Origin: Geomonas ferrireducens
GTDB taxonomy: Bacteria; Desulfobacterota; Desulfuromonadia; Geobacterales; Geobacteraceae
Length of the DNA stretch: 64,000 nt
NCBI RefSeq assembly: GCF_004917065.1
Contig: NZ_SSYA01000001.1
Location: 619,001-683,000, forward strand
Direction of reading: 5' to 3'
Shown: positions 15,193-42,427 of the stretch, piece by piece
How positions within the stretch are numbered: position 1 is the stretch's first letter
Layout of the letters: every line of letters starts with the position of its first letter
Position numbers and translations under genes: made by a program
Notes under the pieces: model-generated
What the model saw: the letters and a program-made list of their open reading frames with translations, nothing else
What the model was told of the DNA's origin: nothing
Database searches by the model: none

Positions 15193-15843
15193 TCACTTCA
15201 ACGAGGTCAGCCCCTGCCTTACCGCGTACTTGGTGAGTTCCGCTATGCTGAAGAGGTCCAGCTTCTTCATGATGCTGTGCCGCTGGTTCTCGACGGTCTT
15301 GACACTTACGCCGAAGGCGAAGGCGATCTCCTTGGCGTTGCTGCCGTTGGCTATCAGTTGCAGGATCTCCCTTTCGCGCGCGGAGAGGTTCTCATAGGTA
15401 GCAGGCACCTCGTCCGGGATGCGCTGCAAGTACTCCTTGATGAGGAGGGTGGTCACCCTCGGGGGGAGGTAGGTCTCCCCGGCGGCGACGGCCCTAATCG
15501 CGCTCGCCAGCTCGGCGAAGGCCGCATCCTTCAGGACATAGCCGTTCGCACCCGCCTTAAGGACCTCCACCACGAAACGGCGGTCGGACTCCATGGAGAG
15601 CGCCAGCACCTTCACCTCTGGGAACTCGGCCATGATGCTGCGCGTGGCATCGATGCCGTTCACGTCCGGCATGGATATGTCCATCACAATGACGTCGGGG
15701 CGCTCCTTGCGCGTCAGGCCGATCGCCTCGGCGCCGGTCCCGGCTTCCGCGCTCACCATCATATCCTCTTCCTTGTCGATCAATGCGCGCAGCCCCTGCC
15801 GGACGATGGCATGGTCATCGGCGATCAAAATCTTCATCTTCAT
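15193..15843 (-). CDS. NarL/LuxR-family response regulator
   Basis: DNA-binding two-component regulator of 216 residues. The receiver domain (1-120) has acidic residues D9/D10, phospho-acceptor D55 in VIVMDISMPDVNG and a conserved Lys in YVLKDA. The C-terminal LuxR-type helix-turn-helix (about 150-212) contains LSAREREILQLIANGSNAKEIA and VSVKTVENQR. The start at 15843 follows GAGGAGGAGACAA. It lies 12 bp behind the sensor kinase gene, which itself overlaps a substrate-binding lipoprotein gene, so the kinase is its obvious partner. Confidence 0.95.
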   Translation of the reverse strand: MKMKILIADDHAIVRQGLRALIDKEEDMMVSAEAGTGAEAIGLTRKERPDVIVMDISMPDVNGIDATRSIMAEFPEVKVLALSMESDRRFVVEVLKAGANGYVLKDAAFAELASAIRAVAAGETYLPPRVTTLLIKEYLQRIPDEVPATYENLSAREREILQLIANGSNAKEIAFAFGVSVKTVENQRHSIMKKLDLFSIAELTKYAVRQGLTSLK

Positions 15844-15855
15844 TTGTCTCCTCCT

Positions 15856-17802: not shown

Positions 17803-18791
17803 GGTCTTAGCACCTGCGGGTCCACGGCTTCCGGTTTCACCGACAGCAGCGGGCGCGGATCAATGACTTCCAGGAAGTTCGGCATCCTGACGTTGCGCGC
17901 CAGGCGGTGCTTCGCCGCCCAGCGGGTTTCCTCCTCGAGAGCCAGGAGCAGGGCGTGGTCCAGGGCGACGGTGCACGAGCCTTCCTCCCACAATTCGGCA
18001 ACCAGTGCCGGTGGAAGCTTGAGGTCCGCAAAGACGATCGCCTGAGCCTCCTGCGGGTGACGCAACGCGAACTCTTCGGCCCGGAGCAGGGCACGCAACA
18101 TGCGCCGCATCGCCTCCTGGTTGCCGTTCACAAACGAGGCGTGCCCTGCAATAACGAAGGTTTCCGTATAGATGTGAGGGTCGTTCAACACCACCCCGTC
18201 GGCCCCCATCCTCTCGGCGATGATCTTGCCGGTGGGGTCCCAGGTGGAAACTGCGTCCACCCTCCCAGAAAGAAGGGCTTCCTGCATCTGTTCCGGCGGC
18301 AAGTCAACCAGCCTCACCTCATCCATGGCCAAGTGGTTGGCGGTCAGGAAAGAGGAGAGAAATATGTGGGAGGTGGTTCCCTGCGTGAAGGCGATGCGCT
18401 TGTTCTTCAAATCTCCGGGGGCGGAGATGCCGCTTTTCCTGCGTGCGACGATGCCGTTTTTCTTGTTCGAGGTATAGATGCTGCCGATCACGGAGAGTTT
18501 CTGCCCACCAAGAACGGCAAACATGAGCGGAGTTTCGGCGACGGTGGCGAGGTCGGCCTTCCCATCCAGCACCGCCTGCAACGCCGCCTTGCCGTAGCCG
18601 CAAGGCTGCACTTGGACGGCGAGCCCCGCATCTTTGAAGAACCCCTTGGCAGCGGCAAGCTGCACCAGCGAACAATCGTGCAAGTTGGCCCAAGCGAGGC
18701 GCAAGGGAATGGGCGGGCCGGCTTCTTGCGCACGCTGACCTTTGCAACCTGAAACTAGCAGACACAGTATCAGTATCAGCGCAACTCTCAG
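17799..18791 (-). CDS. NitT/TauT (SsuA/THI5)-like substrate-binding lipoprotein, likely CTG start
   Basis: Periplasmic substrate-binding protein, anchored as a lipoprotein, of the nitrate/sulfonate/taurine-type family. Typical features are RLAWANLHDCSLVQLAAAKGF, a PCGYGKAALQAVLDGKADLA segment and VDAVSTWDPTGK. No transporter ATPase or permease adjoins it; it overlaps the kinase gene by 4 nt. The TTG at 18704 would remove the export signal. Reading upstream gives a perfect lipobox (LLVSGC, Cys codon 18744-18746) and hydrophobic core. Between the in-frame stop (18819-18821) and the lipobox there is no ATG, GTG or TTG. CTG 18791, 6 nt after GAGGAG, is the best start (330 residues, lipidated C16). 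Confidence 0.8.
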   Translation of the reverse strand: MRVALILILCLLVSGCKGQRAQEAGPPIPLRLAWANLHDCSLVQLAAAKGFFKDAGLAVQVQPCGYGKAALQAVLDGKADLATVAETPLMFAVLGGQKLSVIGSIYTSNKKNGIVARRKSGISAPGDLKNKRIAFTQGTTSHIFLSSFLTANHLAMDEVRLVDLPPEQMQEALLSGRVDAVSTWDPTGKIIAERMGADGVVLNDPHIYTETFVIAGHASFVNGNQEAMRRMLRALLRAEEFALRHPQEAQAIVFADLKLPPALVAELWEEGSCTVALDHALLLALEEETRWAAKHRLARNVRMPNFLEVIDPRPLLSVKPEAVDPQVLRP

Positions 18792-19012: not shown

Positions 19013-19036
19013 AAGGGCAGGCCAAGGCCTGCCCTT
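19013..19036 (-). terminator. Intrinsic terminator of the M48/CHAT operon
   Basis: aagggcaggcc (19013-19023) and ggcctgccctt (26-36) form an 11-bp perfect stem with a 2-nt loop. On the minus strand it is followed by TTTTTT counting the stem end. It lies 55 bp after the stop of the M48 gene. Confidence 0.85.
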
Positions 19037-19091: not shown

Positions 19092-19982
19092 TCACTTTGT
19101 CGTTTTGGAAGCCTTCCCCCCCTTGGCGAACTTCGCGAAACGCGTCGGCAGCTTGGCAAGCGACGCCCGGTCCGGGTACTTCTTAAGCCCGGCGGCCACC
19201 CGCGCCAGGCGCTCGTCCAGCGGCGGGTGGGTCGAGAACCAGGAGCCGTTCTTCGTCGCGGTCGCCTCCTGGCGCTTGAGCTTTTCCAGCACTGTCGTCA
19301 TGGCGGAGGGATCGTAGCCGGTCCGGTAGGTGGTCTCCAGGGCCGCCTGGTCCGCCTCGAACTCCATCCCCTGGTCGAGACCCTTGTCGAAGAGGGTCGA
19401 CTGCATGTCGCCGATCATCGACTCGAACTGCTGCCCCTTGCTCCCCTTCATGGTCGCGGCGGTGATGCTCGCCGCCCCCTGCAGGAACTGGGCGCGCCGG
19501 ATGCTTTTCAGGGCGTGCTTCTCCGCCACATGCCCCACCTCGTGGGCGAGGACCGCGGCAAGCTCCGCCTCGTTGTCCAAGATGTTCAAAAGGCCTCGGC
19601 TGATGAAGACGATGCCGCCGGGGGCGGCGAAGGCATTTTGCACCGGGCTGTCCAGCACCACGAAACGGTACGGGATGGTGGAGCGGCGGCTGTTGCGCGC
19701 CACGGCGTTGCCGACCAGGTTCACGTATTTCTGCAACGCCTCGTTGTTCACCGGCTTGCCGAAGCGCTGCATGCTGTCAAGCGCAAGGCTCTCGCCGACG
19801 GTGCACTCGGTCTGGTAGGTCATCTCCTGCGACGAGGAGAGCACCTGGGTAGCACCGGAGAGGATTTTCCCCTCCTTGGACTCGGGGTTCATCAGGTTGT
19901 TCAGCTTGTCCTGCCATCCGGCGTGGGCCGGTAGCGCGGCGAGGCAGGAGAGAGCCGCAAGGGAAACGATCAGTCTTTTCAT
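19092..19982 (-). CDS. M48-family metalloprotease (LoiP/BepA-like), exported
   Basis: Zinc metalloendopeptidase acting in the periplasm or at the outer membrane, 296 residues. A signal peptide (cleavage after AHA, about residue 21) precedes the protease domain. The zinc motif HEVGH is at 147-151 in ELAAVLAHEVGHVAEKHA, with the third ligand in MEFEADQAALE (about 205). FAAPGGIVFISRGLL is the usual family segment. Two ATGs compete: AGGAGG touches the first (19988) and lies at ideal distance from the second (19982), so I use 19982. It is the last gene of a minus-strand run behind the SH3 protein (12-bp gap) and is followed by a terminator. E. coli relatives degrade misfolded outer-membrane proteins. 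Confidence 0.93.
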   Translation of the reverse strand: MKRLIVSLAALSCLAALPAHAGWQDKLNNLMNPESKEGKILSGATQVLSSSQEMTYQTECTVGESLALDSMQRFGKPVNNEALQKYVNLVGNAVARNSRRSTIPYRFVVLDSPVQNAFAAPGGIVFISRGLLNILDNEAELAAVLAHEVGHVAEKHALKSIRRAQFLQGAASITAATMKGSKGQQFESMIGDMQSTLFDKGLDQGMEFEADQAALETTYRTGYDPSAMTTVLEKLKRQEATATKNGSWFSTHPPLDERLARVAAGLKKYPDRASLAKLPTRFAKFAKGGKASKTTK

Positions 19983-19994
19983 GGGCATCCTCCT

Positions 19995-20495
19995 TTAGCG
20001 GGCGTACTCGCCGATTTTTCCTTCCTTGAGGAAGGTCTTAACTTCTTTGTCGGAAACCTTGCGGGCGAGGATCCGGTCCAGCTCCTTCTTGAGCCCTTCC
20101 GGCGTACCGTGCTGTTTCGCGTATGCGGCAGTCTCCGGGGAAAGGCCGCGGATGCTGCGGGCGCTGTCCGACTTCGCCGTGTTGATCTGGCTTTGCTGCA
20201 TGGTGCCACCTAAAAGGCCGTCGCCTCCCCCCACCTCGGCGACCGGTGCCGCGTCGGCGACCCGCCCCGCGTAAACCCACCCTTCCTTGCCGTCGGCGGT
20301 TTGCACCTTGAGCCAACGCCCCCCGTCCTCGACCAGGGTGAGCTCAGCCCCCACCGGCAGGTCCGCCAGGTTCGCAGCACTTACCGACTGCTCGCTCTTC
20401 AACGTGGTCCCTTCGCTTACCACCCAGCGCTTCTCGGCGCCGAACGCCGTGGCCGCCGCCAGCATCAAGAGGGCGGCGAAAACCGTTTTCTTCAT
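19995..20495 (-). CDS. Exported bacterial SH3-domain protein
   Basis: A 166-residue protein with a signal peptide (AATAFGA cleavage near residue 20) and one SH3b-type domain (about 22-80). The SH3b repeat is recognisable from LADLPVGAELTLVEDGGRWLKV and GKEGWVYAGRVA. SH3b domains usually bind peptidoglycan or partner proteins. The remaining C-terminal half is helical (LSPETAAYAKQHGTPEGLKK) and unassigned. ATG 20495 has GGAGGT at 5 nt. It lies between the CHAT giant (39-bp gap) and M48 (12 bp), so it may act as an adaptor or inhibitor for one of the two proteases. The adaptor role is inference. Confidence 0.85.
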   Translation of the reverse strand: MKKTVFAALLMLAAATAFGAEKRWVVSEGTTLKSEQSVSAANLADLPVGAELTLVEDGGRWLKVQTADGKEGWVYAGRVADAAPVAEVGGGDGLLGGTMQQSQINTAKSDSARSIRGLSPETAAYAKQHGTPEGLKKELDRILARKVSDKEVKTFLKEGKIGEYAR

Positions 20496-20534
20496 GGTCA
20501 CCTCCGTTATGGCCGGAATGGCTCCGGCGCTTCG

Positions 20535-23500
20535 TTACTTGTAATCACCCGTTAGTACGAACGCCCCCCAGTAGCCGGGGTGCGGGTAGCGCTTTCTCAC
20601 GTGCTGCATGGCGAGACCGAGCGCCTGCGCCTTGTCGGTGCCGGCGTAGTCCCGGTAGAACTGCTTCATCAGGATGGCGCTCGATACGTCGGAAACGCGC
20701 CACAGGCTCGAGACCAGGGCGTGGGTCCCGGCGAAGATGAAGGCGCGGTTCATGCCGATCACGTCGTCGCCGCTCTTCACGTCGCCCAGGCCGGTCTGGC
20801 AGGCGGAGAGGACCACGAGGTCCGCCTTGATGTCGAGCCCGAACACCTCCTCGGCCTGCAGCCTGCCATCGTTTCCAGCGTCCTTGGCGAGCCTGATCGA
20901 GGAGAAGAGCGGGTTCACCGGGTCGAACTCGCCGTGCGAGGCGAGGTGAATGATACCGAACCGTGAGATATTCTCACGCACCCAACTCTCGGTGGCGCGC
21001 TCGCGGGTCAGCATGGTCACGTCGGCGTAGTTCCAGCGCAGCGTCCCGGCCTCCTTCTCGGCAAACGGGAGGTCGAGTGAGGCGTTCCCCAGGTCGGGGT
21101 TGCCGATGGCTAAGATGCGCAGGTTCTTCGCCGCCTGGCGCCGGGCCAGGGTGTTGCGGTACACCGAGGCGGCCGGGAGATGGAACAGGTTATGCCGGTC
21201 CACCAGGTAATCGCGCCCGTCGTAGAGGGTCGCGAAGGAGAGGTAGTGGAGGCTGCCGTGCGGCACGATCCCGACCGTGTTCCCCTGCGCCACGCCGGAC
21301 AGGGGGGCGGAGAGGAGCAGCCGGTAGAGTTCCCGGGAGTTCTCCTCCAAGGGCTCCAGGTTCTGCAGCATGCGCCGGTAGGTGGCGATCTTCCCGGAAA
21401 GCTCGGCGGCCGGGACCGGGAGGACGAAGAGGCGGCTTCCCTCCCGCTCCAGACGCCAGCACAGGAGCCGGTCCGGGAGCTGGTAGTAGGAGAGCAGGGT
21501 CACCCCCGGCTCCAAGAGCGAGCGCACCTCCGGCACGGTGACCGGCGCCACCTTGACGAGCGACAACAGTTCCGGTCGGCGCCGTTCTATGTCGATCAGA
21601 AGGTCATGGTAGGAGCCGCGCAGCCGCTCGAGTGCCGCCTGGTACATGGCGCGCTCCGCCGGGTTCGCCGCCTGCTGCGCCAACTGCTCCTGCTCGACGA
21701 TCTGCTCGCGCAGCCGGTTCTGACGCTCGTAGAGATCGCGGTCGGCGCCGCCGGCAAGCGAGAGGCGCTGGCGACCGAGGATGTCGATCAGGTTCCTGGC
21801 GCGGGAGCGCTCGGCGACGGCGAAGGCCTCATCGTCGCGCCCCATTTCCACCAGGAGTCCGACCAGCCCCTGGTAAACGTCCATCTTGTCGGCGAGGAAG
21901 CCGTCCTTCAGCTGGTCCAGTTTGATCTCGGCACGGAGCTCCTCGATGGTGGCTAGCGCGTCGCGGTAGGAGGAGACGGCACCTTCCCGGTCCCCGGCAC
22001 CCTCTTTCAGACGGGCGAGCCCCAGAAGGGCGCGCCAGCGCACCTCGCGCAGCAGCATGAGGTCGGCGAGCTCGAGCGCCTTCTTGTAGCTCCCCTGCGC
22101 CTCGCCTTTCATACCGCTTTTGGCCCGGGCGTCCCCGAGGGAGAGGTGGATCTTCGCCTGGTTCACCCGGTCGCCGGTGCCGTCGGCAAGCGTCGCCGCT
22201 TCGTCGAGGAGCTTCAGCGCCCCGGCAGGGTCTCCCATCCGGAGGCGGGTTTGTCCCAGGTTTCTCAGGTCATAGGCGATGGCCCAGCGCGAGCCTAGGA
22301 CGCGGTCGATGGCAAGCGCCTCACCAAGAGTCTGAAGCGCCCCCTGGTAGTCTCCCGACTCGCGCCGCACGAGCCCTATGTTGTTCAGCGTGGTCGCCCT
22401 CTCGTCCCGGCGCGCCTCCAACTTGCCGGTGAGATCCAGCGCCTGTTTGAGTTCCACAAGCGCCCGCCTTGAGTCCCCCAGGGTCCACCAGATGAGGCCG
22501 CCGGTGTTCTTCGCCATCACCTCTTCCAGGGGCCAGTTTTCCCTCTGCGCGGCCCGCTCCACCTGTTCACGCATATCGAAGGCGTCCTGGTAGCGCCCCT
22601 GGAACCAGGCGTTGTTCCCCTGCTCCAAGACGATCCTCATACGGGTCTTGAGCGCGGCGTCACCCACCTTTGCGAGCGCCTCGCGGTAGAGGAGGTCCGC
22701 ATCCGCGAAGTTCCCGAGCAGGCGACGGCAGCGCCCCCGCTCCAGGATGGTCTCGGCTTCCAGCGCCCGGTTGCCGTTTTTCGCGTAGAGTTCCTGGGCC
22801 TTCGCGTAGTAGCGCTCGGCGGCGGCGAACTGGTTCAGGCGCAGGTCGAGGATACGCCCGAGGTTCCGGTACTGGTCGGCCAGGTTCAGTTCGTCCTTCA
22901 ACTGGGCGTTCAGCCCCGCGGCCTCCTCGAAAAGCGAACGGGCCGCCGGGTAGTCCACCGCGTTCTCCATCACCGCGCCGAAATCGGAGAGCGCCGCGGC
23001 CTGTTCTTTCGCCAGCCCCAGTTCGGCGAAGATGGAGACACCCTCCTTGAGCGATGCGGCTGCCTCGGAGAAGCGCTCCAGGCGTCCCTGCAGAAGACCC
23101 AGCCTGAAGAGCGCATCGGCGTGCTCGGCGGAGTACGGCTTTTCCTTCGCCAGGCGTTTCACCAGGGCATCCGCGTGTAGGACGGCGCGTTCGGTGAGCC
23201 CGGCGCCGAAGGCGCTCTCACGCGCATGGCGGTGCAGGGGAGCGCGCTGTTTGGCAAGCTCCGGGGTCGCGTCCGCCACGACGAGCGCGTTGTCGAAAAG
23301 CGCCAGGGCCTGCGCGTAGCGCCCCTCGTTGTGCGCCGTCACCGCGCGCTTCACCACGTCGTTGAACTGCTTCTTGGCGAGCTGCGCGCTCTCGGCGGCG
23401 TTGCCACCCCAGTCGCCGATCAGGAGCCAACCCGGAGGGAGTTCACGCCGCGCCGTGGCGAGCGAGGCGTCCGCGTAGCTTTTCGCGAAGGGGGAGAGAT

Positions 23501-26500
23501 CGGCACCGCTCCCTTCGGAAAGAAGCAGGCTCGGCACCCCGGCGAGCGAAGCGAGCTGCCCGAGATAATAGGCTTCGTCCCTCCCCCCGCGCGGAGCGAC
23601 TATCAGCGAGACCGACTCGCCCGCAGCCAGCGCGAGAAGGTCGCGGCGCGCCCCAGTGGCGTCCTCGAAGAGGGGATCGAGCCCCCCTCCCCCGCCGGGA
23701 CGGGCGGGTACCGTCGGGAGAAGCCCTGCGGCGCCGGGGAGGGTCAGTGTGTGGGCGTCGGGCAGCCGCTCCGGCAACCCGTCGGGAGGAAGCTTTGTGA
23801 AGGGGGGAAGCGACGGCCATACCCCGGCCGGGTCGAGCACCTGCGTCCTGAGCGGCCTGCGCTGCTCTATGCTCTGCAAGAGCTGGCTGGCACTCACCCC
23901 CCAGGTGAGGACGCGAGCGTCGGCGAAGGCGCCGGGCTCCTCGTAGATGGCGACGAGCGCAGGATCGTTCAGGCGCGAGGCGGCTGCGGCGCGCGTCACG
24001 GTTTCGGCGCGGACACCATCCTTGCCACCCAAGGTGAAGAGGAGGAAGCGGTCGCCGGGAAGCGCCACCAGGCGGAGCACGCTCCGGCCCGGGAGCCGTT
24101 CCAGGACGTCGATCGCCTCGGCGGGCTGCGGTGTGAGCGCCCGACAAAGACGCGGCGCCTTTCCGGAGGCGCACCCCTTGCGGAAGGAGGCGAGGCGGGC
24201 CCGGAAGCCCTCTTCCTTCTCGCCCCCCGGAAGGGCTGCCGCCGAGGCGGCGAGACGCAGGGCGGCGGGACCAGCCGCGGCGTAGTAAGGGGGAAGTAGC
24301 CCCAACTCCTTGCCGAGCATGGCGTCGAGAACCGCCTGTTCCTGCTCGGCGCGCAGCTTAAGGTACGCGGGGTCCGCCGGCGCCGGGCCAGCAAGCTCGG
24401 CGCGAACCCGGTCCAGCTCGAAGAGGTGCGGTGCGGCCCTTTGCAGGAGGGCGAGCACGGCGGGGTCGTCCATGCCGAGGAGGCTTTTCCCGAGAATCTG
24501 GACCCGCTCCAGCTCGGAGAGGCGCTCAACGAGGGCGAAGCCCTGTTCCGGGTCCTTCGCGGTCAGCGCCTCGATGCGGGGGGCGAAGCGCTCAGTGAGC
24601 TCGCCTAAGTGCAGGTCGTATTGCGTGGGGGGGAGCCGGTCGAGGAGTTTCAGCGCCTCGTCGAAGTCGCCAAGTCCCGCGAGCGCACGCCAGGCCATGG
24701 CACCGTTACCGGCGGTGCGCGCCTCGGCGAGAGCATCGCGGTAACCGGCAGCCGCCGCGTCAGGGAGGCCGAGCGAGGAGAGCGCCGCCGCACGGTTCAG
24801 GCTCGCCGCGAGGCCCAAGGTGCTATTCGCCGAAGAACCGGCTTCCCCCTTCGCGGGTGAACCCGCTACGGGGGACAAGACGGGGGACACGGGGGACGGC
24901 GACAGCCGCAGCACGCGGTCCCACATCCCGATGGCGCGGTAGACGAGGGCCTGACGGCTGCCGTCATCGGGACGGCCGGAGGCGAGACGTGCCAGGAGGG
25001 CGGCGGAGTCGTTGCCGTAGCGCGCCAAAGCATCGGCGGGAAGGGCGCCGCGGTAGGAGTCGGCAAGGGCGGAGACGCGGGCCTGCGCCGCCAGGAACTC
25101 GGCCACTGTCTCCGGCGCGGCGTCGGCCGGGATGAGCATCCCCCAGTTCACCAGGTTCAACATGGCGCCGACAGCGTTGCTGCTTCGAAGCGCGATCTCG
25201 GTCCCTTTCCGGAAACCTTCCGCGGCCCCGGCGCGGTCGCCGCGCGCGTAGTCGAGCTGGGCGGCACGGTGGCTCAGGAGCCCGACGCCAAAGAGGTCCC
25301 CCTCGGTGAGCTGATCGACCCGAACGGGGTAGCGGCCGAGAAGCTCCTTGAAGAGCCGCGCCGCAGCTTGGTTATCGCCAAGCTCGGAGGCGATGCGGGC
25401 GAGATAGCTCTGCGCGAGACGCCGCTCCTGCTCGGTAGAGAAACCGAAGGCGGCCTCGGTGGCGTCACCCTTGTTCAGGGCGACGTCGGCGCCCACCTTG
25501 ATCAGCCCGCCGCCTCGCTTCGGCGCCGCTTTCTTCGCAGAGGGGTAGCGGTCCAGTAGCGTCAGCACCTCGTTGAAGCCGTCCCGGGCGAGGTCGAGGA
25601 GCTGACGCCTGTCGCCGCCCGAGGCGCTCTCGGCCTGGCGGTAGAGAGCGATGCTCGCGGAACGGCGGTTCGCGGCCAGGTTCGCCGTCCTGCCCAGGTC
25701 GCGGTTCAGGCGGTAGGCGACATCGAATCGCTCCGCCGCCTCCTTGAAGCGCTCGGCGTCGAAGAGCGCAAGCCCCAGCCGATCGCTTAGTTTCGCCTGC
25801 GTCTCCACCAGGCGCGGCACGGCGGCGAGCTCGCGTTCCACGGCGGCCGCCATGGCAGTAAGTTCCAGAACGTACTTCTCCCCCTGCGGGGTACCGGCGC
25901 CGGCTGCGGCGACCAACTCCTTTTCACGGGAGAGCAGCTTTTTCAACGCCTCCTCGAAGCGCTCCCACGCGGGGGACGGCGGAGGCTCCACGCGCTCCGC
26001 GCCGAGAAATTCCAGTTCCGCGTTGATCTCGCGCTGCCGGGCAAGCAAATGCTCCCGCTCAGGAGAGAGCTTTTCCCCGGCGAAGAGACGCTCGTTCGCC
26101 CGGCGCGTCAGGCGGCCGAACTGCTCGAGCGCCCGCGCCGGATCGAGCCGAGACTGGGCAAGGGAAAGCGCACGGCCGTACCCTTCGATGGCAGCGTCCT
26201 TCTCACCCACCTGGAACGCGGCCGCGGCGTAGCGCTCGTGGAAGAGAAGCTCGGTCTCCGGGTTGTCGAAGGGTACCTTGGAGCCTAAGCGCTGGCGGTA
26301 GAAGCTCCATGCCGTTGCGTTCCTCCCGAGCAAGAAGGCGACGTTGCCAATGTTCAAGGAGAGGTTGGCGGCGTTCTCCGGGTTCACCTCGGGACGGTTC
26401 AAAAGCTTCGCCCTTCGGTAGAGGTTCAGGGCGCGCTCGAGCCCTCCCGCCTCTCCTTGCACCGTCTCGAGCACCTCTGCGATGTAGCCGCGGGTCTGGA

Positions 26501-28814
26501 AGGGGTACTCGGAGCCGGGAAGGCGCTCGGCGGAGCGCGCGATGAGACGGTCTCCCTCCTTGAGCGCATCCTTGCCGGGGAGGTAGGTGAGGCAGAGCCC
26601 GGCAGCGTAGAGGAGCACCGGGTCGTCCGGGTACTTCTTCAGCATCTCTCGGTAGAGCGCCAGGAGCTCCGGGGCCTGCCCCTGGGCGGCGACCGACTTC
26701 ACGTAACCGCGGTGTGCCTCGAGGCTGCGCCCATCGTAGCGGATCAGGTCGAGGAAGGCGGCGCGGGCCGCGGCGATCTCGCCCAGGCGGTACAGGCTCT
26801 CCCCGGCGGCGAGGCTCTTTCTGATGTAGGCGGCACGGGCCAACTGGTAGAGCGGCGCGTCCTCGGGGTGCAGCGCCATTTCCTTCTCGTACAGGGCGGT
26901 CGCCTCGCCGAAGCGTTCCTCGCGATACAGGATCTCGGCGAGCGCGAAACGGGCCGCCGCCGTCGGCGTCGCAAGCGGCGGGAACTGCTCCAGCACGGTG
27001 CGGTAGGCGTCCTTCGCACGCACCCAGTCGCCGCCGCGGTAGGCAAGATCGCCGCTTCGGTTCCAGGCGCCCATGGCGAGGCGCGGCAGGGTGGTGCGGT
27101 ACTGCTCGGCCAAGGCCGCCAGACGCTCACGCGGCTCGGTCGAACCCGCGGTCAGCTGGTCCAGGATGCCGGCAATGGCCGCCTCGGCCCAGCGCTCCTG
27201 CCGGTCGTAACGCTTGGCCACTTCGACGAGCGCGGCAACTGACCCCTCCCCTCCCTCGATTGCCGAGAGGAGACGGGCGCGGCGGTAGGCAGCTTCCCCC
27301 CGGAGCGCCTCGTCCACGGCGGGGTCGGCGGCGGCCTTTTCGAGGAGTGCTATGGCGGCCAACTGGTCCCCCGCGCCGGAGCCATACTCGGCCTGCAGGC
27401 GCGCGGCATCGATGAGCGCCCGCGCCGCAGCGTCGCGCCCCTTGTTCCCGGCCGCGGCGACCATCTCACGCTGCGCCTCGGCGATCACCTCGCTGCGCCT
27501 CCCGGCCACTACGACCTCCTCGCAGCGCAGGGCGGCCCGCAGCCGCACCCCTGCCACCTGCGCGAGAGCGGCCTCGGCCGGGAACGCGGCGTAGCGACGC
27601 GACGCCTCGTGGTAGCGCTCCAGGGCGCCCGGATAATCCTTCGCCTCTTCCATGAGCCCGGCAAGCGCCAGCGAGGCGAGCGCTCCCTCGCGGGTGGGCT
27701 TATCCTCCCGCGCCAGGACGCGCAAGAGGGCGAGCCTTGCCGTCGCCGGATCGGCGGGCTGGCGCTCGAGGATCAGGCGCGCGAGGTCCCACTGGGAGGC
27801 GAGGTCGGGCCGGTCCGGGATTTCGCCGGAAAGGGGAAGCGACACCACCTGTCCCCCGGCTGCCCCTCCGGCGACGAAGAGCACGGAGTCAGGGGCGGGA
27901 ACCGGCGCAACGGTGGAGAGAAGGCCCGAGGTGAGGGGGAAGGCGGCGGGGAGCCCCCCCTCACCGGCACGCTTTAGTTGCAGCCGGAAGACGGCGCCCC
28001 CTTCCGGTCCGGTGGCGGAGTCCCCGGCGGGAGGGGCGAAGCGGGTGAAGAGGATGGTGTCGTCGTCCTGCCAGGCGGGGTAGAGGTCGCGCTCCCCCCC
28101 GGCGGTGAGCGGGCTCAGGCGCCGGGCGCGCAGGTCCCAGAGCCAGAGGTCGCCGCCGGGGTCCTTTTCCCGCGAGACGAAGGCTAGGCGCCCGCCGTCC
28201 GGCGAGGGGACCGCGAAGGCGGCGTCGATGCCTATGGGGATGGTCTCCCCCCTGCCGGAGGTGAGGTCGAAGCGGACGATCTCGCGGCGCCCGGAACCGG
28301 GGAGCTCACGCTGGTAGAAGAGAACGTTCCCGTCCCTTGCGAAGGAGGGGGCGTCCTCGCCGGCGTCGTTACCGGTCAGGCGCACCGGTTCGGCGTCCGG
28401 CCGGGTGAGGTCCAGAAGCCAGACGTCCCCCTTCAGGTCGTCGCGCTCGTCGGTGAAGGCAAGCCGGGTCGCGCCGGCGTCGAAGGCGGGGGCGGCTAAG
28501 CGCACCGGGCTCTTGCGCAGAAGGCGCGGCAGCTTTTCCGTGGCGCCGGCCGGGTGCAACCAGAGCTCGTACCCCGCGTCACCTTTTTCCACCGTCGCCA
28601 TCCACTTGCCGTCCAGGGAACGCGTGGCATAGAGCACCGACTGCGGCGTGTAGAGCGCGGCGGCAGGCGCCGTTTCCGGCCGCGAACGCGGAGCCGGGCG
28701 GGGTGCCGCGGGGGCTAAGAGTTCCTCACCGAGCGGCACCGCTTCCGCGACGCCCGCGGCAAGGAGCGAGGCTAAGGCCAGGAAGAGGGCTGTTTTTCTT
28801 GCCGACGCCTTCAT
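20535..28814 (-). CDS. Giant exported beta-propeller/TPR/CHAT (caspase-like) protein, 2759 residues
   Basis: Start ATG 28814 overlaps the upstream stop (ATGA). Visible order: signal peptide (1-25); WD40/TolB-like beta-propeller (about 45-335, e.g. LDGKWMATVEKG, KGDVWLLDL); a very long TPR solenoid (about 340-1560); a CHAT-like but non-catalytic segment (about 1570-1805); a second TPR array (about 1815-2300); a coiled coil; and a C-terminal CHAT peptidase (about 2425-2759). The last carries the clan-CD pair H2627 in IIHLASHGEF and C2672 in VVLSACQTGLGD, plus the terminal WGAFVLTGDYK. CHAT domains are caspase/separase-like proteases, normally cytoplasmic and regulated by TPRs; here a signal peptide predicts export. 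Substrate unknown. Neighbours are envelope proteins and an M48 protease. Confidence 0.9.
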   Translation of the reverse strand: MKASARKTALFLALASLLAAGVAEAVPLGEELLAPAAPRPAPRSRPETAPAAALYTPQSVLYATRSLDGKWMATVEKGDAGYELWLHPAGATEKLPRLLRKSPVRLAAPAFDAGATRLAFTDERDDLKGDVWLLDLTRPDAEPVRLTGNDAGEDAPSFARDGNVLFYQRELPGSGRREIVRFDLTSGRGETIPIGIDAAFAVPSPDGGRLAFVSREKDPGGDLWLWDLRARRLSPLTAGGERDLYPAWQDDDTILFTRFAPPAGDSATGPEGGAVFRLQLKRAGEGGLPAAFPLTSGLLSTVAPVPAPDSVLFVAGGAAGGQVVSLPLSGEIPDRPDLASQWDLARLILERQPADPATARLALLRVLAREDKPTREGALASLALAGLMEEAKDYPGALERYHEASRRYAAFPAEAALAQVAGVRLRAALRCEEVVVAGRRSEVIAEAQREMVAAAGNKGRDAAARALIDAARLQAEYGSGAGDQLAAIALLEKAAADPAVDEALRGEAAYRRARLLSAIEGGEGSVAALVEVAKRYDRQERWAEAAIAGILDQLTAGSTEPRERLAALAEQYRTTLPRLAMGAWNRSGDLAYRGGDWVRAKDAYRTVLEQFPPLATPTAAARFALAEILYREERFGEATALYEKEMALHPEDAPLYQLARAAYIRKSLAAGESLYRLGEIAAARAAFLDLIRYDGRSLEAHRGYVKSVAAQGQAPELLALYREMLKKYPDDPVLLYAAGLCLTYLPGKDALKEGDRLIARSAERLPGSEYPFQTRGYIAEVLETVQGEAGGLERALNLYRRAKLLNRPEVNPENAANLSLNIGNVAFLLGRNATAWSFYRQRLGSKVPFDNPETELLFHERYAAAAFQVGEKDAAIEGYGRALSLAQSRLDPARALEQFGRLTRRANERLFAGEKLSPEREHLLARQREINAELEFLGAERVEPPPSPAWERFEEALKKLLSREKELVAAAGAGTPQGEKYVLELTAMAAAVERELAAVPRLVETQAKLSDRLGLALFDAERFKEAAERFDVAYRLNRDLGRTANLAANRRSASIALYRQAESASGGDRRQLLDLARDGFNEVLTLLDRYPSAKKAAPKRGGGLIKVGADVALNKGDATEAAFGFSTEQERRLAQSYLARIASELGDNQAAARLFKELLGRYPVRVDQLTEGDLFGVGLLSHRAAQLDYARGDRAGAAEGFRKGTEIALRSSNAVGAMLNLVNWGMLIPADAAPETVAEFLAAQARVSALADSYRGALPADALARYGNDSAALLARLASGRPDDGSRQALVYRAIGMWDRVLRLSPSPVSPVLSPVAGSPAKGEAGSSANSTLGLAASLNRAAALSSLGLPDAAAAGYRDALAEARTAGNGAMAWRALAGLGDFDEALKLLDRLPPTQYDLHLGELTERFAPRIEALTAKDPEQGFALVERLSELERVQILGKSLLGMDDPAVLALLQRAAPHLFELDRVRAELAGPAPADPAYLKLRAEQEQAVLDAMLGKELGLLPPYYAAAGPAALRLAASAAALPGGEKEEGFRARLASFRKGCASGKAPRLCRALTPQPAEAIDVLERLPGRSVLRLVALPGDRFLLFTLGGKDGVRAETVTRAAAASRLNDPALVAIYEEPGAFADARVLTWGVSASQLLQSIEQRRPLRTQVLDPAGVWPSLPPFTKLPPDGLPERLPDAHTLTLPGAAGLLPTVPARPGGGGGLDPLFEDATGARRDLLALAAGESVSLIVAPRGGRDEAYYLGQLASLAGVPSLLLSEGSGADLSPFAKSYADASLATARRELPPGWLLIGDWGGNAAESAQLAKKQFNDVVKRAVTAHNEGRYAQALALFDNALVVADATPELAKQRAPLHRHARESAFGAGLTERAVLHADALVKRLAKEKPYSAEHADALFRLGLLQGRLERFSEAAASLKEGVSIFAELGLAKEQAAALSDFGAVMENAVDYPAARSLFEEAAGLNAQLKDELNLADQYRNLGRILDLRLNQFAAAERYYAKAQELYAKNGNRALEAETILERGRCRRLLGNFADADLLYREALAKVGDAALKTRMRIVLEQGNNAWFQGRYQDAFDMREQVERAAQRENWPLEEVMAKNTGGLIWWTLGDSRRALVELKQALDLTGKLEARRDERATTLNNIGLVRRESGDYQGALQTLGEALAIDRVLGSRWAIAYDLRNLGQTRLRMGDPAGALKLLDEAATLADGTGDRVNQAKIHLSLGDARAKSGMKGEAQGSYKKALELADLMLLREVRWRALLGLARLKEGAGDREGAVSSYRDALATIEELRAEIKLDQLKDGFLADKMDVYQGLVGLLVEMGRDDEAFAVAERSRARNLIDILGRQRLSLAGGADRDLYERQNRLREQIVEQEQLAQQAANPAERAMYQAALERLRGSYHDLLIDIERRRPELLSLVKVAPVTVPEVRSLLEPGVTLLSYYQLPDRLLCWRLEREGSRLFVLPVPAAELSGKIATYRRMLQNLEPLEENSRELYRLLLSAPLSGVAQGNTVGIVPHGSLHYLSFATLYDGRDYLVDRHNLFHLPAASVYRNTLARRQAAKNLRILAIGNPDLGNASLDLPFAEKEAGTLRWNYADVTMLTRERATESWVRENISRFGIIHLASHGEFDPVNPLFSSIRLAKDAGNDGRLQAEEVFGLDIKADLVVLSACQTGLGDVKSGDDVIGMNRAFIFAGTHALVSSLWRVSDVSSAILMKQFYRDYAGTDKAQALGLAMQHVRKRYPHPGYWGAFVLTGDYK

Positions 28815-29413
28815 CGGGCGCCCCACGCCCCGTCGTCCTGCTGCACCCTGGTCCCCGGTGCGCTGTTCTGACGGTTGATCCGGGCGAAGACCTTGCGGAT
28901 CGCCGGGAGGTCGCCCGCGGTGAAGTTCTCGTTGGTGCGCACCACCCGGTTCATCAGCAACTCGCGGGAGCGGTTCACCTCGCCGACCACCTGGCGGAAC
29001 TCACCCTCGCTGTAGCGCGCCGCGAACGCCTTCAGGTCGGCGGGGGCCTTTTCCGGAACCTCGCGTGCGAAGGGGGTCAGCGTCCCATCCAAGTTCTCCC
29101 CTACCCAGCCGAGCCGCTTAAGGGTGTCCACGTCATCGGCGTGGAAGGCGATGGTTTCCAGGGCCTGCGCCGCCTCCTGCTGTTCCGGGGAGTGTTTCGG
29201 GGGCGTTTCCACCTTCCCGGTCGGCGAGACACCGCGCACCGAGGCGACGAGCAGCACGTCATCGGAGAGGGCGTTGTAGGTACCGAGCACCTGGTTCTCC
29301 AGCGAGGTCCGCTCGCTCACCACGTTCACGTCGACTTTGGCGAGGGTGCAGCCGGAAGCAAGAAGAAGGGCGAGGGCAAGTCCGATGGACAATTGACGAT
29401 GGACAATTGACAA
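28811..29413 (-). CDS. YdbL-like DUF1318 lipoprotein
   Basis: Predicted lipoprotein of about 200 residues. The export signal GLALALLLASGC ends in a lipobox. The C-terminal half (EVNRSRELLMNRVVRTN ... GDLPAIRKVFARINRQNS) aligns by eye with E. coli YdbL, and the end (VQQDDGAWGAR) fits that family's terminal Trp. The start is unclear: TTG 29413 behind a GGGGAGGGG stretch is my choice, TTG 29392 is possible, and the frame opens at ATG 29530 through a repeat-rich junction. It follows a YdbH-like gene, as ydbL follows ydbH in E. coli, but no separate YnbE gene is visible. It overlaps the CHAT gene by ATGA. Confidence 0.75.
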   Translation of the reverse strand: MSIVHRQLSIGLALALLLASGCTLAKVDVNVVSERTSLENQVLGTYNALSDDVLLVASVRGVSPTGKVETPPKHSPEQQEAAQALETIAFHADDVDTLKRLGWVGENLDGTLTPFAREVPEKAPADLKAFAARYSEGEFRQVVGEVNRSRELLMNRVVRTNENFTAGDLPAIRKVFARINRQNSAPGTRVQQDDGAWGAR

Positions 29414-29513
29414 CGAGAAGACGCCCCTCCCCCTTTGGGGGCGGGGATGCCACGGCGACTTGTTCGAAAGCAGCGAAGGTTTCAACGTAGAACGTAGATC
29501 GCAGAACGTAGAA
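29379..29513. repeat. Micro-repeat junction between ydbH-like and ydbL-like genes
   Basis: Three unrelated simple structures are stacked here. There are four tandem heptamers of the type cgtagaa (29486-29513). A GC-rich inverted repeat, gcccctccccc-ttt-gggggcgggg, spans 29424-29446. Two perfect tandem copies of a cgatggacaattga 14-mer span about 29383-29410. The last lies inside the signal-peptide region of the lipoprotein. The pattern suggests insertion of a small repeat element at a former gene overlap. Confidence 0.6.
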
Positions 29514-29519
29514 CGTGTT

Positions 29520-32500
29520 TCATTCCGCATGTTTTCTCCTTTTCAGGGACAGCTTCCCCTTCTCGTCGACGACAAGGGTGTCGGAGCGGACCAGGTCGAG
29601 GAGCAGTTGGGAGCTCCTTATCGCCTGGATCAGGCTTTTCAGCTCGTTGTCTATCGGGAGCTCGGAAAGACGCAGACGGTCGATCCTCGGGATGGCAACG
29701 TCCACCCCCTTCACGGCAAGCTCCCCTTCGCAGTCGAGGGCGCCGTCCACGGCGCTCACCCGGAGCCCCTTCAGATCGGCCATCTTGAGCGCCTTTCGCT
29801 GCGCCACGATCTTCTCGTTTCTCTGGTACGGGTCGACGGCGAAAAGGGCGCGGTCCAAGACCCGAGAGCTGAAGCGGCGCAGGTTCAGGTTCATACGCAT
29901 CCCTTCCAGAAGCGCCCTCTTCTCGGTGGCAAGCGGCGCGGAAAGGCTCAACTCGCCGGTCAGCTCTCCCTCGCCTCCGGGACGAAGGGACCCGGCAGCC
30001 GGGAAGAGAAGCACCGGATCGAGGCGCGAGAAGTTGCAGTAGGTGGAAAGCACCGGGGTCGCTCCGGTGAGGTCTATCATGCCCCGGGCGCGCACCGTCC
30101 CCCCGGCGAACTCGGCCTGGAAGAAGGAGAGGCCGAGCGATTCGGGCTCCAGGAGGAGGTCGGCCTCCAGGGCGCTCGCGGCAAGCGGCAGGGCGCCGGA
30201 CCTGAAGGAGGCGCTGCGGACGCCGATCTTACGCGGACCGCTGCTTTCGCCGCGCAGGTCCTGGTAGATCCGGTTCGCGAGATCGGAGTTCGCCACGGCG
30301 AACGGGGCAACCGGAGCGGGACGCACGAGTGCTGTGGAGAGCGGCTCCCACGACTCCCCCTTTCCTTGCGCCAGCGCATAGGTCCGGTCGAGCACGAGGT
30401 CGGCACGCATGCCGTCCGCCCCCACCCCCTTGCCGTCGGCAACACCCAAGTCGCGGCACTTGCCGTAGCCGCGCACCTTGAGCTCCTTGGCCGCGGTCAG
30501 ATCGACGCGCGCGCCTGCGGCGACGTTGCCGGCTAGGCGCCATCCAGCGATGACCTGCTTCGCCTCGGGGGGGAAGTTCCCCTCCAGGTGGGCGAACATG
30601 GTGGCGTCGAGGCGCTTCAAAAGGGTCGCCGTGTCGAGCTTCAACTCGCGCTCATCCATGAGGGCGTCGAGGCGCCCAACGGTGAGTTCGGCCACCTGGG
30701 AAAGGCCGAGCGACGCCACGGTCAGCTCCTCGGTCAGGCGAAGCTCCTTCCAACCGGAAAGCTCCCCCTGCAGCTTGAGCGCACCGGATTGCAAAGGGAG
30801 CGTCGCCGCCGCGCCGGTAAGCCCCTCTAGTGCGGCGAAGCGCACCCCGCCATCAATGGCGAGGGGAAGATCGGCGCGCGGCACGGAAAAGCGCAGCTGC
30901 GGCGCCGTGCTTAACCCCTTGATCCGGTACCCTCCCTGGGCGGCTGGAAGCTTCAGGTCCATGTCGTTCAGCTTCACGGTCAGCTCGCCGCGCTCCAGCA
31001 GGGCGACGCCCCCCTTCGCCTTGCGCAGCGGGTTCGTCTCCGCGGGAGCCTGCGCCAACGGCAGCGGCAGGGAGAGGTCCCACGCGGCGGAGGCGAGCCC
31101 GGCAGCGTCGAAGCCGGCGGGGAGGAAGGGGGCGGCAACCGGCATGAGGCGGCGCAGGTCGATGTGCGCCTCTCCCTTGGTCGCCGCGAGCTGCCTCCCC
31201 TCTCCGGTGAGCGCCCCTTGGGCGGTGAGGGTAAGCGCGTCGGACGCGGCCAGGGTGAAGTGCGCCTGCGCCACCGTCGGGCTCCCCTTACCCTTGGCCG
31301 GCAGATGCACCCCTTCCGCGGCGAGACGCGCAGCGAAGGGACGCAGCGTCACGACCCGCGCCCCCTGGCGCGCCCGCAGCGACGCGGCCTCAAGATTTAA
31401 AAGCGGAAGCGACGCGTCCACGGCGCCGCCGGAAAGCACGCGCCCCTTGAGCGAGACCTCCTCGCGCAGCTTCTCGAACGCCAGGTCCTCCCCAACGGCC
31501 AGCCGCTCGATGCCCAGGCTCTGGGTGGCGTCGGCGACGGCGCGCTTTCCCTTAAGGTCGATGCCGGAGAGGTTCAGGGCCACCCGCCCCCGCACCCCCT
31601 GCGCACGCAGAAGCTTCTTCCCCGCCGCCTCGAGTGTTGCAGCCGAAAGGGATAGTTCTGCAGTCGCCCGCACCGGCGTCATCTTTTTAAGCGGCAGAAC
31701 GGCCCGGTCGAGGGAAAGCACGATTTTCTCCCCCTGCACCGCACCGGCGGGGCGCTTCAGAGAAAGCCGCGGCAGGGCCAGAGCCAGCCCGGACACCGCC
31801 ACCTCGCCGTCGTTCTCCGGCCCCTTGAAGCGCGCGGTAAGCTTCGCAAGTGTCGCGTTCCCGGTCAGATCCTTGAGCGGCAGAGCCTTCCCGAGGAAAG
31901 GTGCGGCGAGTGCGGCGGCGCGGGAAAGCTCGAGGCGCACCCCGGAAAGCTCGACGGAAACGGCGCGGGACTTCTCGGTGGGACGGTCGACGACGGCACT
32001 CCAGGAGGCGGTGAGCAATCCCGGGCTCGCGAGGCTTCCCTCGCTGAAGGTCACCTGCTGCCTTTTGTGATCACTCTTCAGCTTCTGGCGCAAGCGAAGG
32101 TCGAGGGGCGCCACCTTCCCCCTTTTCCCCGGGAGCTTGCTTACGGACAGGCGCTCGCCGTCGAGCGCCAGTGCCAGGCGCAGGTCCCCCGCCTGATCGG
32201 TCTCCCCATCGAGGGCCACCTGGAGGGCTCCTCCAAGCTCCGGCAGAGGCTTCTTCGCCAAAGGCGCCGCCAGTTTCATCACCTCGGCAAGGGAGAGCTG
32301 CAGCCGCGCCTTCAGCCCTTCCGGGCGCGACACGCCCCCTTTCACGTCGAAATCGGCGCCGGGAAGGCCCGCCTGCACCGCGAACAGCGCCCGGGACGGC
32401 TTGATGCGATGCGCCGCGGTAACGAGATCGGCGACCCGCACCTTGAGGCGAACCGGCTGGGCTTTGCCGCCGTCGACAGCCACCTCTCCGGTGAGCGACG

Positions 32501-33122
32501 CCGTGACCGGCAGCGTGGAAAGCGAGGGGACCGCGAGCCCGAAGGCGAAGTTATTCATGAGGAGCTCGCGCTTGGACTCCGGATCGGCGTAACGCAGCGT
32601 CATCGGGGCCGCCTCGACCATCGCCCGCACCTCGACCGGGAGCGGCCACTCCATGGTGTGGAACTTCTGCACCCCTTCCGCGATCCGCGTGAGCGGGTCC
32701 GGCAGCTTCTCCTTAGGCTTTTGCGGCCCAGGGGCGAGGTCCGCATCGAGCTTCGCGAGCTTCACCTCCAGGCTCACGCGCCAGCGCCCGGAGCTCTCCT
32801 CGCGGGAAAGGCCGGGAACGATCTTCAGCTCTTTGAGTGCGGCATGCAGCAGCGGGGGCGGCCCTTCACCGAGGTTAAGGCCGGAGATCGCGATGCCGCG
32901 GGACCAGGAAGCGGTGAGATCATCCCAGGATATGGGACGTTTGAGGGCCTTCGAGATACCGAGTCTCAGCAGTGATTGCACCGGGGAGGTGGAGATGAGG
33001 GTCGGCAGGGACACCAGGAGCAGCGCCAAAAGGAGGAGTCCGGCCAGTGCCACTGCACTCCCGACAAGGAGTACGCGTCTGAGGCGGATTGTGCTGATGT
33101 AGGCGAGGAGACGAGGGCGCAT
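29520..33122 (-). CDS. YdbH/AsmA-like intermembrane (phospho)lipid transport protein
   Basis: A 1200-residue protein with one N-terminal membrane anchor (VLLVGSAVALAGLLLLALLLVSL, about 16-40) and a very long beta-rich, low-cysteine body. The body shows repeated patterns such as LSGVRLELSRAAAL and the AsmA-type opening ISKALKRPISWDDLTASWSRG. The C-terminal portion (GMIDLTGATPVLSTYCNFSRL; MRMNLNLRRFSSRVLDRALF) resembles the YdbH/dicarboxylate-transport domain. TamB/YhdP/YdbH proteins form periplasm-spanning grooves that move phospholipids to the outer membrane; E. coli YdbH is about 880 residues, so this one is longer. It heads the ydbH-ydbL-CHAT-SH3-M48 run. Start ATG 33122 has only a weak GGGA upstream. 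Confidence 0.8.
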   Translation of the reverse strand: MRPRLLAYISTIRLRRVLLVGSAVALAGLLLLALLLVSLPTLISTSPVQSLLRLGISKALKRPISWDDLTASWSRGIAISGLNLGEGPPPLLHAALKELKIVPGLSREESSGRWRVSLEVKLAKLDADLAPGPQKPKEKLPDPLTRIAEGVQKFHTMEWPLPVEVRAMVEAAPMTLRYADPESKRELLMNNFAFGLAVPSLSTLPVTASLTGEVAVDGGKAQPVRLKVRVADLVTAAHRIKPSRALFAVQAGLPGADFDVKGGVSRPEGLKARLQLSLAEVMKLAAPLAKKPLPELGGALQVALDGETDQAGDLRLALALDGERLSVSKLPGKRGKVAPLDLRLRQKLKSDHKRQQVTFSEGSLASPGLLTASWSAVVDRPTEKSRAVSVELSGVRLELSRAAALAAPFLGKALPLKDLTGNATLAKLTARFKGPENDGEVAVSGLALALPRLSLKRPAGAVQGEKIVLSLDRAVLPLKKMTPVRATAELSLSAATLEAAGKKLLRAQGVRGRVALNLSGIDLKGKRAVADATQSLGIERLAVGEDLAFEKLREEVSLKGRVLSGGAVDASLPLLNLEAASLRARQGARVVTLRPFAARLAAEGVHLPAKGKGSPTVAQAHFTLAASDALTLTAQGALTGEGRQLAATKGEAHIDLRRLMPVAAPFLPAGFDAAGLASAAWDLSLPLPLAQAPAETNPLRKAKGGVALLERGELTVKLNDMDLKLPAAQGGYRIKGLSTAPQLRFSVPRADLPLAIDGGVRFAALEGLTGAAATLPLQSGALKLQGELSGWKELRLTEELTVASLGLSQVAELTVGRLDALMDERELKLDTATLLKRLDATMFAHLEGNFPPEAKQVIAGWRLAGNVAAGARVDLTAAKELKVRGYGKCRDLGVADGKGVGADGMRADLVLDRTYALAQGKGESWEPLSTALVRPAPVAPFAVANSDLANRIYQDLRGESSGPRKIGVRSASFRSGALPLAASALEADLLLEPESLGLSFFQAEFAGGTVRARGMIDLTGATPVLSTYCNFSRLDPVLLFPAAGSLRPGGEGELTGELSLSAPLATEKRALLEGMRMNLNLRRFSSRVLDRALFAVDPYQRNEKIVAQRKALKMADLKGLRVSAVDGALDCEGELAVKGVDVAIPRIDRLRLSELPIDNELKSLIQAIRSSQLLLDLVRSDTLVVDEKGKLSLKRRKHAE

Positions 33123-33207: not shown

Positions 33208-33621
33208 TCAGCGCAGCAGCCTGTGGCAGATGCCGCAGAGCTGGTCGCCCGCCCGTATCAGGTGTGGCGCGGGTTGCGTGAGATCATGGCAGGAGAGGCA
33301 GGTGATCTTGCCGTCCTCGAGAATGCATCCCGCGGCAAGGACCTCGGCGGCCGACGCGTACTCCATCTCTTTGCCAAGCGGGGGGTAGCGGTGCATGAGG
33401 GAATGGTCGTTGGTGTAGAGACAGTGGTCATCGAGACATATGGCCACCGGATGCGTCGACCCTTCAGAGTGACAGGCGATGCACTCCTGCATGGTGAGGA
33501 TGCCGCTGGCGCTGGTCAGGTGGTCGATGTTCGCCTCCCCCATGCGCAAGAAGAGGAAGGCACCCAAAGCAACAGCGAGCAGTGCTGCCAGCCATAAACG
33601 GATCTTCCCTGATTCAGGCAT
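33208..33621 (-). CDS. Membrane-anchored triheme c-type cytochrome
   Basis: Small cytochrome of 137 residues with an N-terminal hydrophobic anchor (LWLAALLAVALGAFLFL) that probably stays uncleaved, tethering it to the periplasmic face. Three CXXCH haem-binding motifs are present: CIACH (47-51), CLSCH (108-112) and CGICH (129-133). An extra pair C62/C67 flanks CLDDHC. Several spaced histidines (H57, H73, H77) could serve as distal ligands. TGGAGG precedes ATG 33621. The ydbH-like gene begins 85 bp downstream on the same strand, so co-transcription is possible. Role presumably electron transfer across the envelope; the partner is unknown. Confidence 0.9.
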   Translation of the reverse strand: MPESGKIRLWLAALLAVALGAFLFLRMGEANIDHLTSASGILTMQECIACHSEGSTHPVAICLDDHCLYTNDHSLMHRYPPLGKEMEYASAAEVLAAGCILEDGKITCLSCHDLTQPAPHLIRAGDQLCGICHRLLR

Positions 33622-33885
33622 GAGGCCTCCAGTTCATGGAAGTCTTCAACTCAATCAGCGGCTCCGATTCGCTGTCTGCCGCTTTGCTACTTTGGGGTGA
33701 TAAAAAGTCTAGCACGGCAGCTATGACAGACAACGGGACCTCGATTATATTCGCCTCATTGGCCAGTGTCAGCTGCGCCTAAACTTGAGAGTCCGTTCAT
33801 AATTTCTTTGACCGTCGCCCCACTTCTGCTAAAGTGGGCGTTCCGTAAACAGAACAGGCAAGCCTCATCCAAGGAGGAACCTTTC

Positions 33886-42241: not shown

Positions 42242-42252
42242 CAGACAGGGTT

Positions 42253-42412: not shown

Positions 42413-42427
42413 CCGTGAGGCACATTC

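Follow-up and report, generated by a model that had tools for sequence, protein, structure and literature searches.

A co-inherited five-gene envelope module in Geomonas ferrireducens that joins AsmA-like, DUF1318, TPR-CHAT, SH3 and M48 proteins

Introduction

Do five neighbouring genes encoding an AsmA-like protein, a DUF1318 lipoprotein, a giant TPR-CHAT protein, an SH3 protein and an M48 metalloprotease form one unit of the bacterial envelope, and what might such a unit do? The question was raised by a 64,000-nucleotide stretch of Geomonas ferrireducens DNA (contig NZ_SSYA01000001.1, positions 619,001 to 683,000; hereafter the window), in which the five genes follow one another in this order and direction on the minus strand, from position 33122 down to 19092. 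AsmA-superfamily proteins have been proposed as phospholipid bridges, and one of them, YdbH, has the outer-membrane lipoprotein YnbE as its working partner (PMC8593681, PMC11784454, PMC12977461). An initial annotation of the window had read the first two genes as YdbH and YdbL and the whole as an envelope operon with two proteolytic activities. Here we report that the five genes are firmly supported as a unit by their inheritance, and we weigh what the unit may do.

Results

Genomic organization

All five genes were located on the minus strand where the initial annotation had placed them:

29520..33122, minus strand: predicted AsmA-superfamily protein of 1200 residues with an N-terminal membrane anchor (Pfam, ortholog matches, hydropathy alternation)
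28811..29530, minus strand: DUF1318 (YdbL-like) lipoprotein (Pfam; invariant lipobox Cys; ATG at 29530)
20535..28814, minus strand: exported protein of 2759 residues with PD40/TolB-like, TPR and C-terminal CHAT parts (Pfam, conserved residues)
19995..20501, minus strand: exported SH3_3 protein with a conserved C-terminal extension (start GTG at 20501 or ATG at 20495)
19092..19988, minus strand: exported M48 metalloprotease (start ATG at 19988 or 19982; HEVGH and E211)

The DUF1318 start codon at 29530 overlapped the stop of the AsmA-like gene by 11 nucleotides (nt), and an ATG overlapping this stop by 8-14 nt was found in 34 of 37 relatives. A gap of about 107 nt that had been assigned to this junction was counted from an internal start and was replaced by the overlap. 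The other junctions stood as first described: an ATGA overlap between the DUF1318 and CHAT genes (CHAT ATG at 28814), which recurred in 34/37 relatives, then 39 nt between CHAT and SH3 (ATG at 20495) and 12 nt between SH3 and M48 (ATG at 19982). An N-terminal hydrophobic segment, called by a simple hydropathy rule and no trained predictor, was present in relatives of each family (AsmA-like 47/47, DUF1318 51/51, CHAT 51/51, SH3 45/45, M48 41/44), in agreement with the earlier view that all five products carry an export signal or an anchor.

Co-inheritance and distribution

The five families were searched separately in 141 genomes of the order Geobacterales, at chosen E-value thresholds of 1e-100 (CHAT), 1e-15 (SH3), 1e-15 (DUF1318), 1e-90 (M48) and 1e-40 (AsmA-like). 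The CHAT family was found in 46 genomes, SH3 in 46, DUF1318 in 44, M48 in 47 and AsmA-like in 47. All five occurred in 43 genomes, none in 92 and a partial set in 6, related genomes not being independent. In each of the six partial genomes some gene stopped at a contig end; one of them (G053) showed the last 119 CHAT residues at a contig edge. The SH3-M48 pair of the draft genome G096 lay inside another contig and was kept although unlinked. By tblastn, 35 of 37 regions showed one shared order of all five genes, the two exceptions being a locus that stops at a contig end after CHAT (L063) and the G096 locus (L075), which is without the last two genes at that place. The synteny among relatives for which the initial annotation had called was thus borne out.

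Within the genus Geomonas the set was present in 14 of 19 genomes, and nothing of it was found in 5. The absence from one of these (G018) may reflect an assembly gap; the flanking response regulator lies near a contig start there. No clean empty site was found among the non-carriers of the genus, and four of them (G004, G008, G015 and G016) had no flanking response regulator at E 1e-80. Presence varied inside several genera of the order, and the five genes seem to have been gained or lost together more than once. Divergence was correlated among the module families (r = 0.92-0.98, uncorrected for shared ancestry).

The genome contigs of 84,980 species were then scanned with two conserved CHAT peptide patterns, a design that may miss carriers in other phyla, and 60 loci were obtained. 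The five genes occurred in order at Geobacterales loci, at Desulfobacterales loci (e.g. L124, L126 and L142) and at one Deferrisomatales locus (L136). At the 51 of 60 loci where the CHAT start was on the contig, DUF1318 adjoined it in every case (51/51), the other 9 beginning inside CHAT. M48 was found in 44/60 loci. Five were without it despite DNA downstream of CHAT (L121 of G096, L132, L143, L127 with 1.8 kb and L133 with 2.5 kb), and the remaining 11 stop inside CHAT or shortly beyond it. Outside the phylum there was a single Nitrospirota locus (L132); another, L120, is labelled Myxococcota but groups with Geobacterales rows. The distribution of the module is patchy; its carriers include named isolates of Geomonas and Citrifermentans. 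Because co-occurrence is all-or-none, the separated pair is kept in G096 and gene order is conserved in distant members of the phylum, the five genes are firmly supported as a unit.

The AsmA-like and DUF1318 proteins

The name YdbH proved too specific for the first protein. The YdbH model PF11739 had no match in the window genome at E 0.01, where E. coli and Caulobacter controls did match, and 0/41 orthologs matched it at the same threshold, so that YdbH proper was rejected in favour of the wider AsmA superfamily. Assignment to the superfamily ran through the orthologs only: of six distant orthologs, four passed the cut-off of the Pfam AsmA model (29.8 bits), the match covering their first 130-200 residues, 5 of 41 orthologs matched the model at E 0.01, and some matched the AsmA, DUF748 and YhdP models. 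Family-averaged hydropathy alternated in a beta-type manner (lag-1 -0.28, lag-2 +0.13; shuffle standard deviation 0.03, maximum at lag 2 among 500 shuffles 0.09), most weakly in the last quarter of the protein. The window genome also encodes a second pair of an AsmA/DUF748 protein and a DUF1318 lipoprotein behind a GAPDH-like gene (G000:C1 1579255-1583524, corresponding to L160:6256-10525). This second AsmA protein and E. coli YdbH, each taken as a single sequence, gave the same alternation signs more weakly, and TPR stretches were without them. Aligned with the second AsmA protein, a diverse profile of the AsmA-like family reached 70% in hhalign (E 4e-5, 355 columns) and E 0.0016 in hmmsearch.

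The DUF1318 protein of the window matched PF07027 at E 2e-5 with 25.3-26.1 bits, short of the cut-off of 27, which was exceeded (28) in a genome search only when neighbouring stretches were included; all 13 family members tested matched at E 0.01. With a wider profile the family aligned with E. coli YdbL at 89% in hhalign (E 2e-6) and with the lipoprotein of the second locus at 77.5%. The lipobox Cys was identical in 52/52 proteins (residue conservation counts here and below include the window and are restricted to rows that span 90% of the profile). The name YdbL therefore held at the level of the DUF1318 domain and failed in one respect, the protein here being a lipoprotein, which YdbL of E. 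coli is not known to be. Ortholog matches to AsmA, the hydropathy alternation and the wider-profile alignments together indicate that genes one and two probably make up a divergent AsmA-DUF1318 pair, a system of the YdbH-YnbE-YdbL kind. As in E. coli, an anchored AsmA-superfamily gene is directly followed by a DUF1318 gene and a lipoprotein is involved; unlike there, PF11739 does not match, lipoprotein and DUF1318 are combined in one protein, and the pair is coupled to CHAT, SH3 and M48 genes. The second pair of the genome likewise combines an AsmA-type protein with a DUF1318 lipoprotein and is not beside a CHAT gene, the only CHAT match of the genome at E 0.001 being the module protein.

As a separate observation, the DUF1318 gene has filler sequence, in frame, at 29383-29516, between start codon and signal peptide; short direct repeats (2 x 14 nt and 2 x 12 nt) occur in it. 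Other repeat-like fillers occur at the same spot in relatives (for example L054, L059 and, of the TTETRRHGES type, L068), and in-frame insertions seem to be tolerated there.

The CHAT, SH3 and M48 proteins

That the third product is a caspase-like CHAT protein of 2759 residues was upheld. Its CHAT domain scored 191.7 bits against a cut-off of 24 (E 2e-56), and before it lie a PD40/TolB-like N-terminus, TPR stretches and a mid region to which no family was assigned. The catalytic residues His2631 and Cys2676 (numbered on the 2763-residue form starting from GTG at 28826) were identical in 46/46 full-length proteins, and 39 of 39 family members had both CHAT and TPR matches. With this intact TPR-CHAT protease signature the protein is a predicted protease. 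Its length ranged from 2728 to 2779 residues across 37 regions, apart from one broken copy (G007), and identity to the window protein was 58-96% in these regions, 34-41% in distant loci and 97% for the Geomonas edaphica counterpart. A degenerate second CHAT domain suspected by eye at about residues 1565-1810 was rejected (hhalign 2%, profile A6 against A7).

The SH3 and M48 assignments were likewise confirmed (SH3_3 E 1e-8; Peptidase_M48 E 5e-35, 298 residues), and HExxH and the downstream Glu of the M48 protein were identical in 38/38 sequences. The M48 protein resembles the outer-membrane proteases BepA and LoiP in being exported and in its HExxH..E motif. Its scores lay far under the cut-offs of both NCBIfam BepA (E 9e-29, 100.6 against 570) and the LoiP model (E 2e-19, 70.2 against 365) and, unlike BepA, it had no TPR match in Pfam. 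Among solved structures, the closest chain to the M48 protein was 3c37, 'Peptidase, M48 family'; the CHAT profile had no match at E 0.001, the DUF1318 profile none at E 1, and the AsmA-like profile had only one match, at chance level (E 0.83).

Flanking genes and transcription signals

Three further features bound the run:

19013..19036, minus strand: intrinsic terminator, 3' of the M48 gene (folding energy)
33208..33621, minus strand: small protein bearing three CXXCH motifs and a hydrophobic segment at its N-terminus, upstream and co-directional, outside the conserved core
33744..33772, minus strand: sigma-70-like promoter site ahead of the CXXCH gene (11/12 consensus matches; a consensus match only)

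The terminator, a 14-bp stem (-23.3 kcal/mol, z -3.9) followed by a U-rich tail, ends the run as the initial annotation had it. The CXXCH gene sits 85 nt upstream of the AsmA-like gene, its product matched Paired_CXXCH_1 under the model cut-off (E 0.0015), and its cluster was present in 6 of 61 loci, the window counted. Since the sigma-70-like site precedes this gene, the predicted transcript may start one gene earlier here, at the CXXCH gene.

When the flanks of the 61 loci, which are only partly annotated, were clustered, the five module families were the most widespread; the next families occurred in 21 and 19 loci, all in or near Geobacterales. An ARMT1-like gene recurred in three Desulfobacterales loci (L124, L137 and L139), and at L143:2819-3343 a LEA_2 protein follows CHAT at the place where SH3 and M48 would be. 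Downstream of the window module (15193-18704) lie a response regulator, a histidine kinase and an NMT1-type binding protein; the response regulator was near the module in 14 of 14 carriers in the genus. Elsewhere in the window an M-box (magnesium) riboswitch (42247-42416, 140.9 bits) stands ahead of a P-type cation ATPase gene (42762-45491).

Discussion

We favour the reading that the five genes encode an envelope module acting as one unit, to which we give a probability of roughly 45%. With its anchor in the inner membrane, the AsmA-type protein would form a beta-rich lipid groove across the periplasm, and the DUF1318 lipoprotein would be its docking partner at the outer membrane, combining jobs that in E. 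coli fall to YnbE and YdbL separately. Presumably periplasmic, the giant TPR-CHAT protein would use its propeller and TPR stretches to sense the state of the bridge and, once triggered, make a specific cut in a partner within the module. A precedent in the cytoplasm is the TPR-CHAT protein Csx29 of CRISPR type III-E, described as inactive until a change in the TPR domain aligns His and Cys, after which it cuts one partner at one site (PMC10028731). The SH3 protein could link the complex to the cell wall or to a substrate, and the M48 protease would remove cut or misassembled parts. The role first suggested for the module, to monitor or remodel the envelope, is plausible. A narrower version, in which the caspase-like enzyme reads the conduit and a single cut in bridge or lipoprotein switches lipid flow or signals stress, is rather unlikely.

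Several observations weigh against this reading of a bridge-centred unit. The window AsmA-like protein itself was marginal against the Pfam AsmA model PF05170 (10.5 bits, E 0.25), E. coli YdbH aligned poorly with the family (hhalign 1.9% with the narrower profile A5, 8.5% with the wider one), and with narrower profiles the alignment to the second AsmA protein fell to 0.4%. Narrower profiles also lowered the DUF1318 alignments to 52.8% for YdbL and 18.8% for the lipoprotein of the second locus, and a YnbE-like N-terminus was not found in the DUF1318 lipoprotein (hhalign 5.9% and 2.4%). Some copies look broken: the DUF1318 and CHAT genes of the one-contig genome G007 (L060) carry frameshifts, and the AsmA-like gene is split over two frames in G040 and G087, through either decay or sequencing error. 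The DUF1318 family was found at E 1e-10 in 12 of 395 genomes of a phylum sample, CHAT also being at 11 of those 12 loci. Not every part of the module is obligatory, because three loci have partial sets: L133 (Desulfobulbaceae) has the first three genes only, with 2.5 kb of downstream DNA to inspect, L143 has no SH3 or M48 in 10 kb downstream of CHAT, and L132 (9328-18358; a Candidatus Magnetocorallium metagenome-assembled genome, Nitrospirota by tree) has DUF1318-CHAT only, the profiles of the AsmA-like, SH3 and M48 families matching nothing across 28 kb. Nor need the module be an essential transporter, because the window genome encodes TamB as well as the second AsmA/DUF1318 pair.

The alternatives that survive best place the same proteins in other envelope processes. 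In one, the lipoprotein, TPR-CHAT and SH3 proteins would act as one proteolytic complex to hold peptidoglycan enzymes in check, with the AsmA-like protein as a scaffold or as a lipid supply matched to wall growth. The tight tie between SH3_3 and CHAT would fit: SH3_3 occurred in 46/141 genomes, 45 of them among the 46 CHAT carriers (E 1e-100), and the 46th, G053, is the one with a CHAT end at a contig edge. Against it, bacterial SH3 domains also bind proteins, and no neighbour beyond the five was widely shared among the partly annotated flanks. A parallel to the proposed complex is LbcA-CtpA of Pseudomonas aeruginosa, which belongs to an unrelated protease family and is not known to include an AsmA-like protein. 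LbcA-CtpA is reported to be an envelope complex that controls cell-wall endopeptidases by proteolysis (PMC12569750). HetF, a CHAT membrane protein of another lineage, is reported to belong to the divisome and to act at the synthesis of septal peptidoglycan (PMC8406250). HetF shares with the module protein a CHAT domain and a link to the envelope, and Csx29 shares the TPR array and the His/Cys CHAT domain. Unlike both, the module protein is exported, has 2759 residues and a PD40/TolB-like N-terminus, and is tied to an AsmA/DUF1318 pair. We consider control of cell-wall growth unlikely.

Equally unlikely in our view is a maturation system, in which the proteases would trim or assemble surface proteins, lipoproteins or cytochromes and the AsmA-like protein would aid outer-membrane insertion, as proposed for TamB. 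Export of both proteases, the resemblance of the M48 protein to the beta-barrel assembly-enhancing protease BepA, the CXXCH gene ahead of the unit in a few loci and a patchy distribution as for an optional function (CHAT in 46/141 genomes) speak for it, but no conserved substrate gene widely accompanies the module among the 61 loci.

A role in defence or programmed death, in which CHAT would be an executioner turned on the envelope when the cell is attacked, is very improbable. Weak PADLOC matches (BovA E 1e-5, TPR E 6e-7) and a match to the Csx29 NCBIfam model at E 4e-9 point that way, although the latter scored 35.8, far under the cut-off of 300. Defence is disfavoured because all five products carry export signals, the genus neighbourhood is stable, with the same response-regulator gene near every module, and the mature DUF1318 protein had no match in 72,556 plasmid records, a search made with this one product of the five; the CHAT protein is moreover conserved over its full length. 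Chance sharing of an operon by unrelated envelope genes, to which the separate occurrence of these families elsewhere (as in the second AsmA/DUF1318 pair, with no CHAT beside it) might point, can hardly be reconciled with all-or-none inheritance, the separated SH3-M48 pair kept in G096 and an order kept in distant phylum members while most flanks differ.

No description of such a five-gene module was found, by title among the matches listed, in the literature searched, which left preprints and most subscription journals outside, and the CHAT domain was nowhere co-mentioned there with YdbH or with Geobacter. DUF1318 was mentioned there in a single paper, whose title points to another subject. 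Each superfamily is known, and their union in one heritable unit appears to be new. The factors that AsmA-type lipid bridges need, and the control of these bridges, are largely open questions according to one paper (PMC12977461). A naturally linked AsmA-type protein, lipoprotein and two proteases are direct candidates for bridge control, and the module would place a caspase-like protease in the periplasm. If the proposed gating is true, it would amount to a caspase-type switch that is regulated and acts outside the cytoplasm, its core being the pair of DUF1318 lipoprotein and CHAT protein.

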